DNA from: an uncultured bacterium
GTDB taxonomy: Bacteria; Bacillota_I; Bacilli_A; RF39; UBA660
Assembly (NCBI GenBank): GCA_948433885.1
Contig: CAOJEC010000014.1
Coordinates: 1 to 33,169 of the forward strand
Length of the DNA: 33,169 bases
Reading direction: 5' to 3'
The translations under genes were made by a program, and so were the position numbers. Shown in pieces: positions 2,096 through 32,457 of the stretch; positions within the stretch are counted from its first letter, which is position 1, and each line of letters opens with the position of its first letter. The notes beneath the pieces are model-generated. The model did not search any database, was not told the DNA's origin, and saw only the letters and a program-made list of their open reading frames with translations.

Positions 2096-4270
2096 CTATT
2101 CACTAGTTTTATAAAATTCTTCTCTTTCTTTGATTATACAAAGTTCGCCGACTTCCACATTTCGGTTTTCATATTTGTTTTTCAAATATGTGACAAAATC
2201 GTTTTCTAATTCGTCTTTGCTATCGCTCTCAAATTCGTTTTTCATGATGCAGTTTTCCATCACTTTCCGCAGACGTTTCCATCTATCGTAATACTTAGAC
2301 TTGGATTTGACCATGAATCCCTTCGAATCTTCTAAAACGAAACCTTCGACATGATCTCCATCCAAAGTATAATCTTCGGACATTATAGTGTCGTAAACTT
2401 TATCGAATTGTTCTACGTCCTCTACTGAAAAGACTAACTTCTTAGTTTCGATTCGATTTTTACTAGCAAAATCTATCAATTCAGAATAAACCATTTTTTC
2501 AAAATCGATTCTATTTCGAATGACATCTAAAAGTACAATTTGTGAATGCTCGTACTCGATGATATGTGGATCGTTTATAGGATCGATGACCTCGAATACA
2601 AAAGTCTCTTTTTCGGCCATGATCTTATTTTTGATCGCCCCGATTTGGTCGTCATCGAATGTTTCAAAAAATATCTTTTTGAAATAGTCCACATAATTCC
2701 CGACATTTGTCGACTTCGATGCAAAAAATAATTCACCTTTTTCTACCGACAGTATTCCCAAAAAACCATTGTACTTCAAATAAAAGTTTACAGGATACGA
2801 TAGTTCATTTTTAAGTTCGGCAAGTTGTGTTTCTTTTCTTTCACCTATTTTAAAAAATTTATTGTAACTTCTCGCGACTATCCTATTATCGGAAGTATTT
2901 ATGAAAAGACCTCTCGTCTTAGTAGTAATATCATCCCAAACGCGATTATAAAATGCCTCTTTTGTAAAATTGAATGAAGAAATATTGTCACCCAATTCCT
3001 TTTCATAAACATAGTTGTTTTTTCTGAGCGAAGAAACCAAATTGTAGATATTTGTTTCTTCAACTAAATTCTCATTGTAAACTTCATTTTTAATTGCAGT
3101 AAAACTCATCGTCCCATCATCATTCAAAGTGAGTACTCTCAAGTTTCCACCATGTTCGACATCTCCTTCGAGATTGTAAGAATATTCATAATCTTCCATC
3201 GAAACTTTAAAATAGTTTCTATGTCCGTGTATTTGAATTACTTTATCTAATGCCTTCCTAGCATATTCGTCGTAAATTTGATCTATATTAACATCGTACT
3301 TATCTACTCCATATATGAACGAATTTGTACTATAATAATCGATCGGTAAATTTGGAAAATATGGTATTCCTCCATGTGTGACTAAGTAGGTTTTATTTCT
3401 AAAATTTAAATAAGCAATTTGCGACAATTTTTTTATGAATCCTCGCACCTCGCTTTTAGAAAGACTGTGAGATTCGAATTCTTTGATCGTATTTTTAATA
3501 TCGTAATCTAAGACGAAGTCATCATCACAAGCATATTTGTATAGTTTATCTTCGTGATTTCCCACTAAAAATGTCGCATTTTTATTATCCATCAACTTCG
3601 TCAAAAATTCGTACGTTTGATAGTTTTCTATACCTCTATCGAAGTAGTCACCGACGAATATATATGCATCTTCTACTCTATAAGGATTATTATCGAAATA
3701 TGTCTTAAGGGCAGTGAAACATCCATGAATATCACCGATTATATGAACATTCTTATAATGATCGTAATTCATCGGTTCGCGTGTCAAAATGGATTCGAAA
3801 TCATCAGGATCGACTATTTTGAAAGCGCCAGGAATTTGTTCTTTAGCAAAATTTTTATAAGCTCTATCTATTGAACATTCAGGAACGACTTTATATATTT
3901 CTCGATTTTTATTCCTGTCGTACACTTCTTCTTTTGGAATTTTCGTAAAATCTAAAATGTAGAGTCTATATCTATATTTCTCGGCCAACTTTTTATAAAC
4001 GGATAGATCATCTTTTTTAGAATGAACCGCGTCGACTATTGTAAATTCTCCCTTTTTCATTCTTTCTTCCAATATACTATATAAAATATTCCATGTCTTT
4101 TTGTTATTGAACTGTGGAATCATCTCGGTGTGATCGATAGTCAACTCGGGAGAATTCAACATAAGCCTTATCGTATCAGCCGACAAAGTGAATCTTTCCA
4201 AATCATTTTTTTTCACAAAAGTGCTTTTACCTGAGCCTTGTGCTCCTCTCAAAATTATCAATTTGCGCAT
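2096..4270 (-). CDS. Polynucleotide kinase / metallophosphatase / RNA ligase fusion (Pnkp-like)
   Basis: 724 aa with three domains. (1) Residues 1-165: a P-loop 5'-OH polynucleotide kinase with Walker A GAQGSGKST (9-17) and an Arg-rich lid near YDRNKNRE (117-124). (2) About 174-395: a calcineurin-type metallophosphatase with GDIHG (179-183), GDYFDRG (207-213), GNHE (237-240), THGG (298-301) and HGH (348-350), as in bacterial Pnkp. (3) About 410-680: a nucleotidyltransferase of the T4 Rnl1/fungal Trl1 type, with TRGLFI (452-457) and KFF (471-473), motif I KYNGFLG with adenylation lysine K499, ASKS (517-520), motif IV EGFV (642-645) and motif V VKSKSKYY (654-661). CthPnkp has the same domain order but is longer, and works with Hen1; no Hen1 methyltransferase is visible here. 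AGAGGTG precedes the ATG. The inferred role is to heal and seal broken RNA, for example tRNA cut by a toxin nuclease. Confidence 0.88.
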   Translation of the reverse strand: MRKLIILRGAQGSGKSTFVKKNDLERFTLSADTIRLMLNSPELTIDHTEMIPQFNNKKTWNILYSILEERMKKGEFTIVDAVHSKKDDLSVYKKLAEKYRYRLYILDFTKIPKEEVYDRNKNREIYKVVPECSIDRAYKNFAKEQIPGAFKIVDPDDFESILTREPMNYDHYKNVHIIGDIHGCFTALKTYFDNNPYRVEDAYIFVGDYFDRGIENYQTYEFLTKLMDNKNATFLVGNHEDKLYKYACDDDFVLDYDIKNTIKEFESHSLSKSEVRGFIKKLSQIAYLNFRNKTYLVTHGGIPYFPNLPIDYYSTNSFIYGVDKYDVNIDQIYDEYARKALDKVIQIHGHRNYFKVSMEDYEYSYNLEGDVEHGGNLRVLTLNDDGTMSFTAIKNEVYNENLVEETNIYNLVSSLRKNNYVYEKELGDNISSFNFTKEAFYNRVWDDITTKTRGLFINTSDNRIVARSYNKFFKIGERKETQLAELKNELSYPVNFYLKYNGFLGILSVEKGELFFASKSTNVGNYVDYFKKIFFETFDDDQIGAIKNKIMAEKETFVFEVIDPINDPHIIEYEHSQIVLLDVIRNRIDFEKMVYSELIDFASKNRIETKKLVFSVEDVEQFDKVYDTIMSEDYTLDGDHVEGFVLEDSKGFMVKSKSKYYDRWKRLRKVMENCIMKNEFESDSKDELENDFVTYLKNKYENRNVEVGELCIIKEREEFYKTSE

Positions 4271-4341
4271 TTTTACACACCTCTAATAGATTTCTATATT
4301 TAATAAAAGATTATACTTCTATCATAAACATCGACATATCG

Positions 4342-4391
4342 TATTTTAACATAATTTTGAGTATATTAAAACTCGAACGTTCGGGTTTGTT
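4342..4391 (-). repeat. Terminator hairpin plus 36-nt direct repeat, copy 1
   Basis: Bases 4342-4377 are identical over 36 nt to 6902-6937. On the minus strand the block starts with a hairpin (AAACCCGAAC/GTTCGAGTTT, 4368-4387) whose 3' arm runs into TTTTAATAT, an intrinsic terminator shape, and continues into an AT-rich trailer with imperfect TTTTAA/TTAAAA symmetry. It lies about 110 nt past the stop of the ATP-grasp gene, in the direction of its transcription. The remaining bases of 4271-4498 show no gene. Confidence 0.75.
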
Positions 4392-19929: not shown

Positions 19930-20146
19930 CTAAACAAAAAGACCATCGTTGCATAGGGACGGATACAACTCCGCGGTGCCACCCTATTTCACAATAGTCA
20001 TTGTACTCTTTTAATCGATCCTTAACGCGGTTATCGAACGATGGTGTTATCTACAAAAGTGTCTTCCCACGATCGATCTATGAACATTCCACCGACAGTT
20101 CACTCTCTTAGAAAATCGTATACATGGTACTCTTCTTTTCACCAAA
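19930..20146 (-). promoter_or_regulatory. T-box riboswitch leader, probably tRNA-Asp-responsive
   Basis: The minus strand contains the canonical T-box AGGGTGGCACCGCGG (19985-19971), with CCGTCCCTAT downstream forming the antiterminator partner. About 120 nt upstream are stem I elements: AGAGAGTGAAC, GGTGGAA and a specifier-loop-like GAAGACA, where GAC (20063-20061) is an Asp codon; the overlapping CAC (His) is the alternative. The -10 TATAAT lies at 20153-20158; a TTGACA at 20181-20186 is 22 nt away, too far for a standard spacer. A perfect 9-bp inverted repeat, ACCATCGTT (20045-20037)/AACGATGGT (19950-19942), flanks the T-box and its 3' arm runs into CTTTTTGTTT. No normal GGGACG terminator arm is present. 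The leader is about 220 nt. Confidence 0.88.
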
Positions 20147-20216
20147 AATACAATTATAGTTTAGTTCAAAATGACGAAGATGTCAAGATCTTCAAACTCG
20201 AAATAATACCCAAAAG

Positions 20217-20253: not shown

Positions 20254-21375
20254 TCAACTCTTCATTTGCATTTTTACCAATTTTGCATGTACAACTGTTT
20301 TAGAAGTGTTGGTATGACAAGTCGAAAGGGTGATGATTTTATCTTCTCGACCTATCGAAGTACCAAAATCGACCTGACTTCTACTAGCTAAAGTATTAAA
20401 GAAATCTAACTTTTCTTCGTCATTTTCAAACTTGTTTAGAAGATAATAATTTTCCGTATCTATGGTGTAGGCCGAGAACATTTGAAATACCATATTCGCC
20501 TTATCCGTCGAAACGTAGATCAAATATTCATCTCTTTCCTGACGCCATTTTTCTTCCAAGATCAACTTGAGAGAACCGAACATCGCATAGTTTCTTCTAT
20601 TGTGTCCATAAATGATCGTATTATCGTTGAGTTCATTCCAATCGTTCCTAAAATCGCCAAAAATCCATCCGGCCGAATTCGGTGTTCGATCGTACGAATG
20701 ATTCAAATAGAATTCGTTGTCGACCGTTTGAACTATAGGTGCACTTATATCCAACCCGTCGATCTTTATGTAACTGACTGTATCCGAGTTCACTTTCTTC
20801 AATTTGGAAAAATCTACATCGACCACCGACAACTTAGAATAATCGATCCTCTCACCTTCGGAAGAAGGATGAACGACCAAATTTTGAAGTTGATCATTTT
20901 CCAAATCGTCAGAAGTGACTACCTTCTCCGTTACGAGATCGCGAACATTTTCCATTTGTTGTTCACTATCATCGTTTTCGTTACCCCAAAGACCCACTTT
21001 TGTAGCACAATAAACCGCGGTGAAGCACAAGACGAAAGCCAAAAGTAAAGAAATAATTTTTTCACTTTTTTTCACACGCTTCTTTTTTGTGCTCTTTTTA
21101 GGCTTAACTTCTCTTACAACTTCACTATTTAAAAGTTCTTTCTTTTCTTCTAAAACATAAGTCGTACTTTCCCTTCTAGAAGACATCGTAGGTAGTTCAG
21201 CTGCTTCGTAATCGTCCGCATCGGTTAAAACTACCTTTTTAGAACCTCTTCTAGTCAATGCTTTTCTTTGGAAAGAAGATTTGGAAGCAACATCAGTTAT
21301 TCCCACTATCTTAGGCAAATCGGAATGAACTTTTCTTTGTAGTTCTTCGACATCGTTAATTTTCTTTTCGTTCAT
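20254..21375 (-). CDS. Class B-like sortase
   Basis: 373 aa, a membrane transpeptidase. Residues 1-105 are an unusually long, basic and Ser/Thr-rich cytoplasmic tail; one membrane span follows (106-124), then a linker and the sortase fold (about 185-373). IDGLDISAPIVQ (205-216), LNHSYD, GWIFGDFRN, IIYGHN with catalytic H258, and TLSTC (349-353) with catalytic C353 are of class B type. The position of the catalytic arginine (TLSTC-N5-R-xVV) holds K359 in HTNTSKTVVHAKL. It should cleave a sorting signal and join the protein to the cell wall; the gene just upstream encodes a protein ending in NPQTFD plus a membrane tail. GGGTGA precedes the ATG. Confidence 0.88.
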   Translation of the reverse strand: MNEKKINDVEELQRKVHSDLPKIVGITDVASKSSFQRKALTRRGSKKVVLTDADDYEAAELPTMSSRRESTTYVLEEKKELLNSEVVREVKPKKSTKKKRVKKSEKIISLLLAFVLCFTAVYCATKVGLWGNENDDSEQQMENVRDLVTEKVVTSDDLENDQLQNLVVHPSSEGERIDYSKLSVVDVDFSKLKKVNSDTVSYIKIDGLDISAPIVQTVDNEFYLNHSYDRTPNSAGWIFGDFRNDWNELNDNTIIYGHNRRNYAMFGSLKLILEEKWRQERDEYLIYVSTDKANMVFQMFSAYTIDTENYYLLNKFENDEEKLDFFNTLASRSQVDFGTSIGREDKIITLSTCHTNTSKTVVHAKLVKMQMKS

Positions 21376-21464: not shown

Positions 21465-22721
21465 TCAATTTAGATTCTTTTTTAACAATAACCCTGCTCC
21501 ACCGATACTGATTACAGCAAGACCTGCATAAATAGTTACACCATCGAAAGTTTGAGGATTATCGACGCCCGGATCTTTAGGATCTTCAGGTTTTTCAGGA
21601 TCAGTAGGTTCTTCAGGATCAGTAGGTTCTTCAGGATCTACTGGATCGGTTGGTTTACTAGGTTCTTCGACCTTTCCATCGAATACTTCGTCGTTTTTGA
21701 CAACAACGGTCTTTTCTTCATCGCCCAATACGATGACACTCAAGTCTTTACCTGATTTGTTTTCTATAAATGCTCCTTCTTCCATCTTGAGCATTCCTTC
21801 GGTGACCTCTACACCATTTGCGATGACCAACTTTTTGCCAGACAAAACGATAGTTTCTTCGGTGATATTCTTGTTTAATACGAGAGTCGCACCTTCGGCC
21901 AAGTAATTTAATGCTTCTTTTGTAGCAGTGATCTTACCATTTACCTCTAGAGCCACGTCATCTCTCTTTGTATCGCGACGAACGAAATTATCGGAAATGA
22001 TCACATTCTCACCTTCGAAAGAAACATTGTTAGTATGTTTTTCACTTGAATCTTCAGATGCTGCATCGTATTTCCCCAAAATTACAGGCCAATAAGCATC
22101 CAAAGTAGAATTGTTTATAGTGACATTCGCATCGTATGCTTTGCCTCCATATAAGATACTCATCGTCAAGATAGATGCACCATTCGGCACTGCTGCACCC
22201 TTGATAGTTGAATTATCTACTCTAGTGTTACCATAGTTCATGATCGCACCCGCTGTTCCAGATTCGGATGTAACTGTCGAATTTTTGACAGTCATCACAG
22301 TTCCTTCCTCAGCTTTGAGTGCTGTCCAATAAGCATCCAATTTGACGCCTTCGACAGTTAGAGATTTGTTGTTGCGAATACAAGATGATGATTTAGTCTC
22401 TTGAACAGTACCATCGACAACTGATTCCTCTTTCTCACATACGACCGATCCATTTTTGATCGTCAAATCGGTAGAACTGTTGATCAAGTAGCCGTATTTG
22501 ACTCCTCTAGATAATGTATGACCTGCCAAATCTATCGTTTTGATGTTGCTATTCTCTCCTAGTACCAAAGTTGAAGCCAACTTGACATCATCAGTCAATG
22601 TGACTACTCCATTTGCGTCCGGTTCTGGTAAAGTTGTTTGTAGTGCTTGCGTTTTCATAGGATTGAATACACAAGCCGTTGCGAAAACTCCTAATAAACC
22701 GAGTTTATTCAATGTTTTCAT
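21465..22721 (-). CDS. Secreted beta-helix surface protein with NPQTFD sorting signal
   Basis: 418 aa. A signal peptide (1-26, MKTLNKLGLLGVFATACVFN with ALQ cleavage near 26-28) leads a long strand-repeat region (about 35-340) with right-handed beta-helix spacing (LTIKNGSVV, LTVEGVKLD, MTVKNSTVT, VTINNSTLD). An acidic Pro-rich linker follows with EEPTDP repeats (about 352-385), then NPQTFD, a hydrophobic span (IYAGLAVISIGGAGLLL) and KKNLN. This is a complete cell-wall sorting signal of the NPQT[NGF] type used by class B-like sortases. AAGGAGGA precedes the ATG. The sortase gene follows 89 nt downstream. The ligand is unknown; adhesion or glycan binding is only a guess. Confidence 0.85.
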   Translation of the reverse strand: MKTLNKLGLLGVFATACVFNPMKTQALQTTLPEPDANGVVTLTDDVKLASTLVLGENSNIKTIDLAGHTLSRGVKYGYLINSSTDLTIKNGSVVCEKEESVVDGTVQETKSSSCIRNNKSLTVEGVKLDAYWTALKAEEGTVMTVKNSTVTSESGTAGAIMNYGNTRVDNSTIKGAAVPNGASILTMSILYGGKAYDANVTINNSTLDAYWPVILGKYDAASEDSSEKHTNNVSFEGENVIISDNFVRRDTKRDDVALEVNGKITATKEALNYLAEGATLVLNKNITEETIVLSGKKLVIANGVEVTEGMLKMEEGAFIENKSGKDLSVIVLGDEEKTVVVKNDEVFDGKVEEPSKPTDPVDPEEPTDPEEPTDPEKPEDPKDPGVDNPQTFDGVTIYAGLAVISIGGAGLLLKKNLN

Positions 22722-28937: not shown

Positions 28938-29765
28938 TCATTTTTTATATTTGAACAGTGCCGATGGTCGATGTCCCCCACCGGTCTTCATCTTATTGGT
29001 TTTTACTACTCTCTTGGCGATGATTCTTCGGAAGGCAGGATCTAGCAATTTCTTACCTAAGATGACCTCGTACACTTGCTGTAATTCTCCTAAAGTAAAT
29101 AACTCTGGCATCATGTTGAATACCACATCGGTATATTCCAACTTGTTTCTAAGTCTTTCTAAGCCAGCCAAAATGACGAGAGGGTGATCGAAAGCCAAAA
29201 GATCGTTTTTCAATATTTCGAAAGAATATCTATCAGTAGTAGATTCTCTTAAAACCTTTTTAATTGTGAAATGAATTGTATTCGTCCCGTCATCCAAAAC
29301 GATGTCAACTACGTTGTCTTTTTCTTCATATAAAGTAACATCGAACCAAGATGCTCCCGCGTTCAACTTGTCTTTTAGGCGATTTTTATCTACGAGAGCC
29401 ATATAGGAAGTCGAAATGACGCGCATTCTAGGATCCCTATCGACTTCGCCATATGTATACAATTGCTCGAGATAAATATTCTCCAAATTGGTTTCACTTT
29501 TCAATATACGTTTTGGAGCCTCATCTAAAGCCTCATCTACCTGAACGAAACCTCCCGGCAAACACCACTTGTCTTTAAAAGGATGATTTCCCCTTTTGAC
29601 AAGAAGCACACTCATCTTTTTCTTGTCGGTTTTACGATAATTATCAGCTTCTTCATTGGACACACTGAACATCAAAATGTCCGTGGTCAAGGCCAATCTA
29701 TCGAATTTAGAGGGATCATATTCTTTCAAAAACTCCCCTTCCGTAGCATATATTTTGTTGTCCAT
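28938..29765 (-). CDS. NrtR-like regulator: degenerate Nudix domain plus winged helix
   Basis: 275 aa. A Nudix domain (about 22-150) with LTTDILMF and KDKWCLPGGFV is followed by a C-terminal winged-helix part (about 195-275: LEYTDVVFNMMPELFTLGELQQVYE, LLDPAFRRIIAK, GGGHRPSALFKY) as in the NrtR/COG4111 group. The Nudix box (72-91) reads G-x5-E-x7-R-I-L-K-S-E, so two catalytic glutamates are lost. NrtR proteins use this pocket to sense ADP-ribose and repress NAD genes. It is the last gene after nadE, nadD, pncC and nadK, which supports a regulatory role for this transcript. Confidence 0.82.
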   Translation of the reverse strand: MDNKIYATEGEFLKEYDPSKFDRLALTTDILMFSVSNEEADNYRKTDKKKMSVLLVKRGNHPFKDKWCLPGGFVQVDEALDEAPKRILKSETNLENIYLEQLYTYGEVDRDPRMRVISTSYMALVDKNRLKDKLNAGASWFDVTLYEEKDNVVDIVLDDGTNTIHFTIKKVLRESTTDRYSFEILKNDLLAFDHPLVILAGLERLRNKLEYTDVVFNMMPELFTLGELQQVYEVILGKKLLDPAFRRIIAKRVVKTNKMKTGGGHRPSALFKYKK

Positions 29766-29809: not shown

Positions 29810-30616
29810 CTAAAAACGCCTGTTAAGCAATTTTTCGTTAACTTTCTGAGTAAAACTGTGATGATCAGATCTCAGTCGAGAAATTTTTCTTTGAGCTAAT
29901 CGCGTTTCTATATTTGTCACCCCGACATAATGTTGGTTCTTCCCGTCGATGGTTATGATCAAATCGTCATTTTCGAATGGTTCTATTTTTATAGTTTTAT
30001 CGGGCGACACTATAAGAGAGTTTTGCAAAGACATATAGACACTAGAATTGATAGGAGCCATCGGCGTCACTTGCAAACAGGAGAAAGTATCGAAGACTAT
30101 GCTTCCACCATAACTCAAATTGTGTGCAGTAGACCCTGTCTAAGTCGCGACGATTAAGCCATCACTCACCAAACTTTCCAACTTATCTCCATCGATATAG
30201 ATGTTAGCCTTCGTCAATTTCAAGTCTGCTGCCCGAACTACGATCTCATTCAACGAAAAGAATCTCGATACGCCAGTTTTATGAGTGACAATGGTTTCTT
30301 GAATGCCGATCTCGTCGATTTTATAATTTCCTGTTTTTAAGTCATCGAGAAAAGAATTCAATTCTTCCATTTTTATTTCTTGCAAAAATCCCAACGTGCC
30401 GACATTGATTCCTACATATATGACATCTTCATCGAAATTGCTGCTTTCGACCATAGATAAAAATGTACCGTCTCCACCTACCGCCACCGCTAAATCGTAG
30501 TCTTCGTCATCTATTACATACCCTTGTTCGACAAAACATTTGGCTACTGTCGCGGCATGTCGACGAGATTCATCCACATCTCTTATAAAAAACGCTACTT
30601 TATGTAAGTTCTTCAT
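29810..30616 (-). pseudogene. nadK: NAD kinase gene with an in-frame TAG
   Basis: One continuous frame of 268 codons broken only by TAG at 30142-30140 (codon 159). The 5' part has GGDGTF (47-52), the ATP-binding and catalytic GGDG motif, YVGINVGTLGFLQEI (67-81) and SLNEIVV with NE at 123-124. After DGLIVAT comes the TAG, then TGSTAHNLSYGGS and VTPMAPINSSVY, the conserved nicotinamide/ATP-site segments of NAD kinases, to the normal end. TCG to TAG is a one-base change that would restore a Ser in the T-x-TGST loop. A truncated protein would lack the NAD site. NAD kinase is normally essential, so a sequencing error, suppression or a second copy elsewhere should be considered. It overlaps pncC by 4 nt. 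Confidence 0.88.
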
Positions 30617-31080
30617 CTTATTGTCTCGAGCAATTTATCTTCTATTGCTGCAATAACCAAATCTTTGTTCTCTGCTCGGGTATCTTTGTCGACCTCGATC
30701 GTGAAATCTTCATACCCCTCTTTTTCCTTATCGTAAATACTTACGAACACGACATCATCTTTGCCACGAATGTTATTTTGATCGGCTCTTTTCAATTTAC
30801 CAGTTACACCTACTCCATAATCGGACTTTGAAAACTCGACTATATTTTTACTCATTTCTCTGGCCGTTTCTATGCTGTAAACGCTGTATTTTTCGATAAC
30901 TTTCTCATCGACACCCATTTCGATTTTATATTCGTTCGAATAAGTGACTGCACTGAACTTCAATACTTCACTAGCGCCTTCGATATTCGTTATCGCATTT
31001 ACGACACCACCACCCGTACAAGATTCCATCGTACTTATCGTCTTATGCTTTTCCTTCAAAAGTTCTACTACTCTTTTCAT
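30613..31080 (-). CDS. pncC: Nicotinamide-nucleotide amidase (CinA C-terminal type)
   Basis: 155 aa, the length of a stand-alone PncC without the CinA N-terminal domain. TMESCTGGGVVNAIT (17-31) holds the catalytic Ser (S20 in ESCTGG); SAVTYSNEYKIEMGV (43-57) holds the dyad lysine in the YSNExK block; DYGVGVTGKL (87-96) is the phosphate loop. It converts NMN to NaMN, returning nicotinamide-containing nucleotide to the NadD step. Its start overlaps the nadD stop (ATGA) and its stop overlaps the nadK start (ATGA), so translation is coupled through three genes. Confidence 0.88.
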   Translation of the reverse strand: MKRVVELLKEKHKTISTMESCTGGGVVNAITNIEGASEVLKFSAVTYSNEYKIEMGVDEKVIEKYSVYSIETAREMSKNIVEFSKSDYGVGVTGKLKRADQNNIRGKDDVVFVSIYDKEKEGYEDFTIEVDKDTRAENKDLVIAAIEDKLLETIR

Positions 31081-31676
31081 ATTCCATCATCCATCCTTCT
31101 ATATAAATTATTCTTATCTATATACTCGTAAACTGATTCATCCAAAAATTCTTTGACAGTCTCTTCTTCATTCAAAAGAGCCATTCTCACTTTAGTTGAA
31201 GACAAATCTCCTACTTCGACATTCGCGACAGTTATAGAACCTTCATAAAGAGAATAGCTGCTGACGATTTCTTCGACATCATCCCCGTTGCGGCGCGCAA
31301 CTAAAACATTGTAATTAGATAAAATGTACTCGTATCTTTTCCAAGAGTTCAATTCCCGAAGATTGTCAGTACCACACACGAAATATAATTGTACATCGGA
31401 ATACTTATCTCTCAATTTGTCCATCAACTGATAAGTAAACTCACAATCCCTAGTTCCTCCTATTTCTAAAACTGACATTTTATCGTGATCTCTCACCATC
31501 AATTTTAACATATTTACCCTGTCTTCAAAACTAGCAAGATTGCTTTTTGGATAAAAATCTCCTGTCGGCACGAATATAATTTCATCGACATAACCGTTTT
31601 CCATAAGTAACTCGGCGATTTGTTTATGAGACTTATGAGGAGGATTGAAGCATCCACCGAATACACCGATTTTCAT
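31077..31676 (-). CDS. nadD: Nicotinate-nucleotide adenylyltransferase
   Basis: 199 aa, the usual NadD length. The nucleotidyltransferase motif GGCFNPPHKSH (7-17) corresponds to GxFNPxHxGH. FVPTGDFYPKS (about 35-45), YFVCGTDNLREL (about 98-109) and LSSTKVR, equivalent to the ISSTxIR site, complete the family. It makes NaAD from NaMN and ATP. Second gene of the NAD operon: it starts 16 nt after nadE and overlaps pncC by 4 nt. Confidence 0.93.
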   Translation of the reverse strand: MKIGVFGGCFNPPHKSHKQIAELLMENGYVDEIIFVPTGDFYPKSNLASFEDRVNMLKLMVRDHDKMSVLEIGGTRDCEFTYQLMDKLRDKYSDVQLYFVCGTDNLRELNSWKRYEYILSNYNVLVARRNGDDVEEIVSSYSLYEGSITVANVEVGDLSSTKVRMALLNEEETVKEFLDESVYEYIDKNNLYRRMDDGI

Positions 31677-31692
31677 ATCGTATCACTCAAAA

Positions 31693-32457
31693 CTATGCAG
31701 ATTTTTTATATGTAGGTATGTTGAATTTGTGTAAATTGTTCGCGTGCAACTTGCGGATCTTCTCGGCAACTTTCTCATCCACTGCATTTTCATCTTCCAT
31801 GAAGGCTGCCACATCTGCATACTTGACTCCCAATTTGTCTTCATCACTTTGATTCGATAGACCATCATTAGGTTGCTTATATAATACTTTTTCAGGCACT
31901 TTCAAATATTCGCCAATCTTTATCACTTCTTCTACAGTGAAATCCGCAATCGGAGAAATATCATGAACAGAATCGCCACCTTTTGTAAAATACCCGACGT
32001 ACAATTCACATTTGTTACTAGTACCCGCGACCAAGTAAGTTTTACCTCTTAAACTAGAATACAAAGCAGCCAAATAATACAAAGTCGCCATTCTAAGTCT
32101 AGGCTTGAGATTTATATCGCTGTTTTTGAGATCACCTTCGCTGAATCCACCCAATCCTTCGAGTTCGTTCTTAAAGGTATCGAAAGTTCCTGTAATGTCG
32201 AAATTTATCAATTCGAATCCATAATAATCGCTGATCAATTTGGCGTCCGTTTTATCTTCTTCTTTAGAATGACAAGGCATCGTCACACCGATGACGTTTT
32301 CCTTGCCCAATGCTTCTACCATAAGTCCTGCCACTATTCCAGAGTCTTTGCCACCACTTATTCCCAATATAGCCCCACCGACTCCTGCAGATTTATAATA
32401 ATCTCTTATGAACTGCACCACCTTCTCAGTCTGTTCTTTTGCATCAAAATTTTTCAT
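31693..32457 (-). CDS. nadE: NH3-dependent NAD synthetase
   Basis: 254 aa. The PP-loop is SGGKDS in LGISGGKDSGIVAGL (about 33-47). LINFDITGTFDTF, NLKPRLRMATLYYLA, LVAGTSNKCELYVGYFTKGGDS and ISPIADFTVEEV match NadE. No glutaminase domain is present, so ammonia is the nitrogen donor. It converts NaAD to NAD+. First gene of the operon: a consensus promoter lies 88 nt upstream and a 15-bp palindrome sits in the leader. AGAAGG is the ribosome site; an ATG 18 nt further upstream lacks one. Confidence 0.94.
   Translation of the reverse strand: MKNFDAKEQTEKVVQFIRDYYKSAGVGGAILGISGGKDSGIVAGLMVEALGKENVIGVTMPCHSKEEDKTDAKLISDYYGFELINFDITGTFDTFKNELEGLGGFSEGDLKNSDINLKPRLRMATLYYLAALYSSLRGKTYLVAGTSNKCELYVGYFTKGGDSVHDISPIADFTVEEVIKIGEYLKVPEKVLYKQPNDGLSNQSDEDKLGVKYADVAAFMEDENAVDEKVAEKIRKLHANNLHKFNIPTYKKSA

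Follow-up and report, generated by a model that had tools for sequence, protein, structure and literature searches.

A stop codon inside the NAD kinase gene of an uncultured bacterium and the scarcity of nadK among its relatives

How does a bacterium come to carry an in-frame stop codon within its NAD kinase gene (nadK), a gene usually regarded as essential? The question is raised by the window, i.e., the whole stretch of 33,169 nucleotides analysed here, which is contig C14 of a draft genome (G000; 1.41 Mb in 62 contigs, 91.4% complete and 0.5% contaminated). NAD kinase is described in PMC6675116 as the only enzyme that produces NADP(H), typically encoded by one gene in prokaryotes.

The interrupted frame and its operon

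The relevant features of the window are as follows.

28938..29765, minus strand: nrtR-like gene encoding a NUDIX and winged-helix regulator of NAD metabolism (PF21906 NrtR_WHD and PF00293 above cut-off)
29810..30616, minus strand: nadK (NAD kinase) frame, 268 codons and a terminal TAG, broken at codon 159 (PF01513 and PF20143 above cut-off)
30140..30142, minus strand: in-frame TAG, nadK codon 159 (of 19 family genes, 17 have Ser here, one Thr and one Pro)
30164..30166, minus strand: nadK codon 151, Ser instead of Gly, the first Gly of the G-x-G ahead of the TAG
30613..31080, minus strand: pncC, CinA C-terminal-like nicotinamide-nucleotide amidase (PF02464; TIGR00199 above cut-off)
31077..31676, minus strand: nadD, nicotinate-nucleotide adenylyltransferase (TIGR00482 above cut-off)
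31693..32457, minus strand: nadE, NAD synthase (PF02540; TIGR00552 above cut-off)

The operon reads nadE, nadD, pncC, nadK and then the gene of the nrtR-like regulator, which scores 153.6 where the NCBIfam NtrR model requires 400, and all of its genes other than nadK are open. In gene content and order the window and its relatives share the organization of NrtR-linked NAD salvage operons (pncA-pncB-nadE-nadD-pncC-nadK-nrtR), but nadK is absent or broken in several of the family copies. The genes pncA and pncB are not seen in the window because its part of the operon stops at nadE and a tRNA gene before the contig end. Elsewhere in the window, a T-box leader (Rfam RF00230, 99.1 bits) occupies 19952-20151 of the minus strand, the genes at 20254-21375 and 21465-22721 presumably encode, judging by their motifs, a sortase and a cell-wall-anchored protein, and the 724-residue protein encoded at 2096-4270 is one that we take to be a polynucleotide kinase-phosphatase-ligase of RNA repair.

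In the assembly sequence, positions 30140-30142 of the plus strand read CTA, which is TAG in frame on the minus strand. Along the frame from 30616 to 29810 this codon is the sole internal stop, and the terminal stop at codon 269 is likewise TAG. The initial annotation, which had located the TAG at codon 159 between DGLIVAT and TGSTAHNL and had seen no frameshift around it, is borne out on both points: the flanking residues are as claimed and the rest of the 268-codon frame is open. The reading frame is nevertheless disrupted, as in a pseudogene, and no uninterrupted frame runs across both NAD kinase domains. When the protein is read through with the TAG as X, its residues 35-98 match PF01513 (39.8 vs. 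a cut-off of 25.5 bits) and its residues 124-231 match PF20143 (60.9 vs. 23.7 bits). The window protein thus shares with bacterial NAD kinases (NadK/PpnK; PF01513 and PF20143) both domains, the GGDG motif, the motif at codon 159 and the overall length; it differs from them in the in-frame TAG, in the replacement of Gly151 by Ser, and in a score under every NCBIfam NAD kinase cut-off. Eighteen such models matched it, the best being PRK04885.1 (160.5 vs. 220), a comparison that does not discriminate, since it covered the window protein alone.

The TAG cuts inside the conserved motif T-S/P-x-G-S-T-A-Y/H, before most of the C-terminal domain. As the predicted 158-residue product ends within this motif and is devoid of most of that domain, the truncated NAD kinase should be inactive, judging by its sequence. 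The nearest solved structures, which are NAD kinase 1 entries (e.g., 5ejg and 2i1w), align with STPSG at the site of codon 159 (e.g., 5ejg), and class-level outgroups have mostly Pro there. The serine of the 17 family genes is encoded by TCA, TCT, TCC or AGT, and in none of them by TCG. The single change from TCG to TAG proposed earlier is plausible, as TCG makes up 91 of the 544 Ser codons across the 29 window ORFs, but the ancestral codon itself is unobserved.

The statement that both halves of the protein are fully conserved proved too strong. Eight codons upstream of the TAG, the position of Gly151 is occupied by Gly in all 93 aligned homologs and in 62/62 of the whole-genome set, while the window gene encodes Ser, and so the otherwise conserved G-x-G that precedes the T-x-x-G-S-T-A motif is not preserved. 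Lineage-specific changes are, in addition, about twice as numerous as in the sister gene in both halves.

Substitution rates along the operon

The latter result comes from a relative-rate test in which the window genome was compared with a sister genome of the same genus, G003, whose nadK is intact. A site was counted as lineage-specific when one sister differed and the other matched the outgroup, and significance was set at chi2 > 3.84. For nadK, the window lineage and its sister had on average 36.1 and 18.3 lineage-specific sites, and the window lineage was significantly faster with 41 of 57 outgroups and the sister with none, these outgroup tests not being independent of one another. The corresponding means were 14.0 and 10.2 for nadE (significant with 1/20 outgroups), 20.4 and 19.5 for nadD (0/28), 13.0 and 12.0 for pncC (0/35), and 21.0 and 21.7 for nrtR, where the window lineage was faster with none of 43 outgroups and the sister with one. 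A smaller outgroup set gave 38.6 and 19.4 for nadK (14/17), 15.9 and 10.7 for nadE (2/19), and 4.3 and 3.6 for rpoB (0/24). The excess is alike in the two halves of nadK (24.0 vs. 12.3 and 12.8 vs. 6.0), which indicates that the weakening does not begin at the stop.

While the rate test points to relaxed selection relative to the intact sister gene, as would be seen in a pseudogene, other measures are less clear. Between the two genomes nadD is as divergent as nadK (44.6% and 53.6% identity, respectively), and the pN/pS ratios of nadK and nadD are 0.47 and 0.45, with synonymous sites saturated. Differences of nadK from the sister gene at codon positions 1, 2 and 3 amount to 0.37, 0.27 and 0.59. 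In leave-one-out comparisons of columns conserved in at least 95% of sequences, the window gene departs at 3 of 35, and intact genes depart at up to 5 of 36 (median 0). The identity deficit of nadK relative to nrtR is second largest of 45 in the window, that of the full-length gene of G276 being larger. From these comparisons of sequences we infer that selection on NAD kinase has weakened in the window lineage, with nadK alone accelerated among the genes tested.

nadK in related genomes

Of 98 family genomes, 19 proved to carry nadK when searched with a profile built from 19 nadK proteins of the family; PF01513 was likewise above its cut-off in 19 of the 98, and in 14/14 control genomes. Within the window genus, two of nine genomes carry nadK, namely the window genome and its sister G003. 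Two weak profile matches were left out of this count, a remnant in G095 and a doubtful match in G082 (E 5.5e-4). A wider draw at the level of the order comprised 240 genomes with a completeness of 90% or more, 59 of which pass the PF01513 cut-off; every listed member of this draw belongs to the same family, the 133 genomes without a match not being listed. Sixty-five loci were taken as nadK, and the removal of that of G287, which passes the PF01513 cut-off and has no match to the profile, left 64. Internal stops are present in two of these 64 genes, which belong to different genera: the TAG of the window and a TAA in G252.

Gene counts were made in 80 genomes, the same for every gene, namely G003 and 79 members of the family with a completeness of 90% or more; nadK was found in 19, nadE in 29, rpoB in 75 (a few of them only fragments) and MurB in 68. 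The number for nadE depends on its threshold: 76 of the 80 genomes have a match at E <= 0.001 and only the 29 with E <= 6.5e-27 were counted, the rest being mostly weak, partial matches in longer frames, which we take to be other ATP-pyrophosphatases. The next match after the 29, in G068, is a fragment with stops (E 3.6e-11). The presence of nadE goes together with that of nadK, as it was found in 18 of the 19 nadK-bearing and 11 of the 61 nadK-less genomes (Fisher p 1.5e-9, without correction for kinship). MurB was found in 54 of the 61 nadK-less genomes and in 14 of the 19 nadK-bearing ones. The MurB C-terminal domain, which 68 of the 80 family genomes have, was not found in three genomes of the window genus (G000, G003 and G006).

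The nadE loci of the 11 genomes with nadE and without nadK were examined, and these and other loci of the family provided the following features.

L218, about 4244-4351: nadK C-terminal remnant of G095, between nadD and nrtR, a profile match with a stop
L247, 1475-4093: AIPR gene and an orphan gene of G006, in the slot of nadK in the window and G003
L220, 2254-3273: APH-type phosphotransferase of G118, a candidate replacement kinase
L324, 1649-2446: nadK of G252 with a single in-frame TAA near codon 128, operon neighbours open
L217 (G068:C5:8141-8524): nadE fragment of G068 with three in-frame stops

In G108 and G013, for instance, nadE, nadD, pncC and nrtR lie together with no nadK between them. 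The remnant in G095 is similar to the C-terminus of nadK over some 30-36 codons (E 8.7e-6). In G006, which belongs to the window genus, pncC and nrtR are separated by an AIPR-family gene and by the gene of a 265-residue orphan that matches no Pfam family, and in G118 the APH-type phosphotransferase occupies the position between the same two genes that in the window and some relatives holds nadK. The nadE fragment of G068 indicates that nadE also erodes in this family. The interrupted nadK of G252 is not accelerated (14.6 vs. 13.5 in comparison with G236), and its stop may therefore have arisen very recently or be erroneous.

An rpoB tree of 70 genomes, 17 of which carry nadK, requires at least 16 changes in the presence of the gene. 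That NAD kinase was lost about 16 times is not claimed here, since counts of changes do not separate loss from gain. Distances of nadK are correlated with those of nadD (r 0.50) and hardly with those of rpoB (r 0.05). As nadK thus follows nadD and not rpoB, part of its distribution is probably due to horizontal transfer of genes of the operon. Loss of nadK is directly supported only for G095, by its remnant; it is likely for G006, where the operon slot of a member of the same genus is without the gene, and it is in progress in the window genome and in G252.

Origin of the stop codon and supply of NADP(H)

An error of sequencing or assembly, with nadK in fact intact, functional and fast-evolving, is an unlikely alternative. 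The genome is a draft in 62 contigs, the event concerns a single base, the 266 aligned nadK codons are otherwise open, and the variation of nadK, highest at third codon positions, points to prolonged purifying selection. Speaking against an error, the excess of substitutions and the loss of the invariant glycine are found in nadK itself and not in its operon neighbours, and internal stops, present in two of 64 nadK genes, are absent from the strong matches of nadE (0 in 29), rpoB (0 in 75) and MurB (0 in 68), although the Fisher p for this difference is only 0.073. A near-identical copy of the window nadK from another assembly was not present among 80 related loci obtained by a profile search of contigs (titled uncultured Bacilli, Tenericutes, Erysipelotrichaceae, Candidatus Onthousia and Candidatus Avacholeplasma), the best identities listed among them being at most 57%, to the protein of G003; a contig search with the single window NAD kinase protein for an independent assembly of the species gave no match. 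We consider it very unlikely that a second, intact NAD kinase escaped detection, whether by excessive divergence or by lying in the unassembled portion of the genome. The 8.6% of the genome absent from the assembly leaves room for it, but none of the 19 nadK-bearing family genomes matched the nadK profile more than once, and PF01513 was found in all 14 control genomes. The search for a second copy suggested by the initial annotation, made with PF01513, the window protein and the 19-row profile, detected a single nadK in the 91.4%-complete genome.

Read-through of the TAG by a suppressor tRNA, or its recoding, would yield a full-length enzyme and would agree with both halves of nadK staying in frame; we regard it as highly improbable. 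The search for a suppressor, also suggested earlier, revealed no CUA anticodon among the 32 tRNA genes of the genome, a set that is incomplete, with Tyr and others missing, so that a suppressor could be missing as well. Two proteins of the release factor family are present, with PAT and SPF motifs near the usual place, and presumably represent RF1-like and RF2-like factors, respectively. TAG is the terminator of 8 of the 29 ORFs of the window, nadE and nadK among them, and with the RF1-like gene retained and TAG in such use, a recoded TAG was rejected. Moreover, the sole other interrupted nadK of the family, that of G252, has TAA, and suppression would leave the rate excess unexplained. Amber suppression, one of the options raised at the outset, is accordingly disfavoured, and the same holds for two separately translated chains that rebuild the enzyme, which we find barely credible. 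A second ORF does start eight codons past the TAG, at a TTG (30118-30116), the next start-like codon, but the two chains would divide the conserved motif and lack eight of its residues, and none of the other 62 uninterrupted family genes is a split NAD kinase.

The window nadK is therefore probably a recent null allele of a gene already under weakened selection and turning into a pseudogene. Among the four options proposed initially, a recent null with a second copy, its first part is the best supported, while the second copy was not found. Selection on NAD kinase would have weakened in the window lineage, the otherwise invariant Gly151 would have been lost, and the stop would then have arisen at codon 159. 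We further infer that the stop has become fixed and that the cells live without the canonical NAD kinase. Such a cell would still make NAD and would no longer phosphorylate it to NADP, tolerating the loss as most sampled relatives, which show no nadK, would, by uptake of NADP(H), by enzymes using NAD(H), or by an unrecognised kinase. The gene resembles young nonsense pseudogenes of genome-reducing lineages in its single stop, open remainder, weakened selection and relatives that lack or erode it; it differs from them in the essential role usually ascribed to NAD kinase and in its operon neighbours, which remain open. The assumption of an indispensable NAD kinase does not hold for this group, as most of the sampled relatives show no detectable nadK.

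Taken alone, a nonsense null allele in a draft genome is ordinary, and the family-wide scarcity of nadK matters more than the single stop in the window. No account of a loss of NAD kinase in this group, presumably the RF39-like gut bacteria with reduced genomes, came up in our literature searches. As the only detected nadK of the window genome is broken and most sampled relatives are without the gene, these bacteria may have another source of NADP. MurB, for instance, is usually NADPH-dependent. Our tentative proposal is that most of the family has no recognisable NAD kinase and keeps such normally NADPH-dependent enzymes, that its NADP(H) is imported or made by an unrelated NAD kinase, for which the APH-type protein of G118 is a candidate, and that the window genome has been caught losing the canonical one. 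A family in which most sampled genomes are without a detectable nadK and MurB is kept poses a testable question, namely, where its NADP(H) comes from and whether an unrecognised enzyme supplies it.
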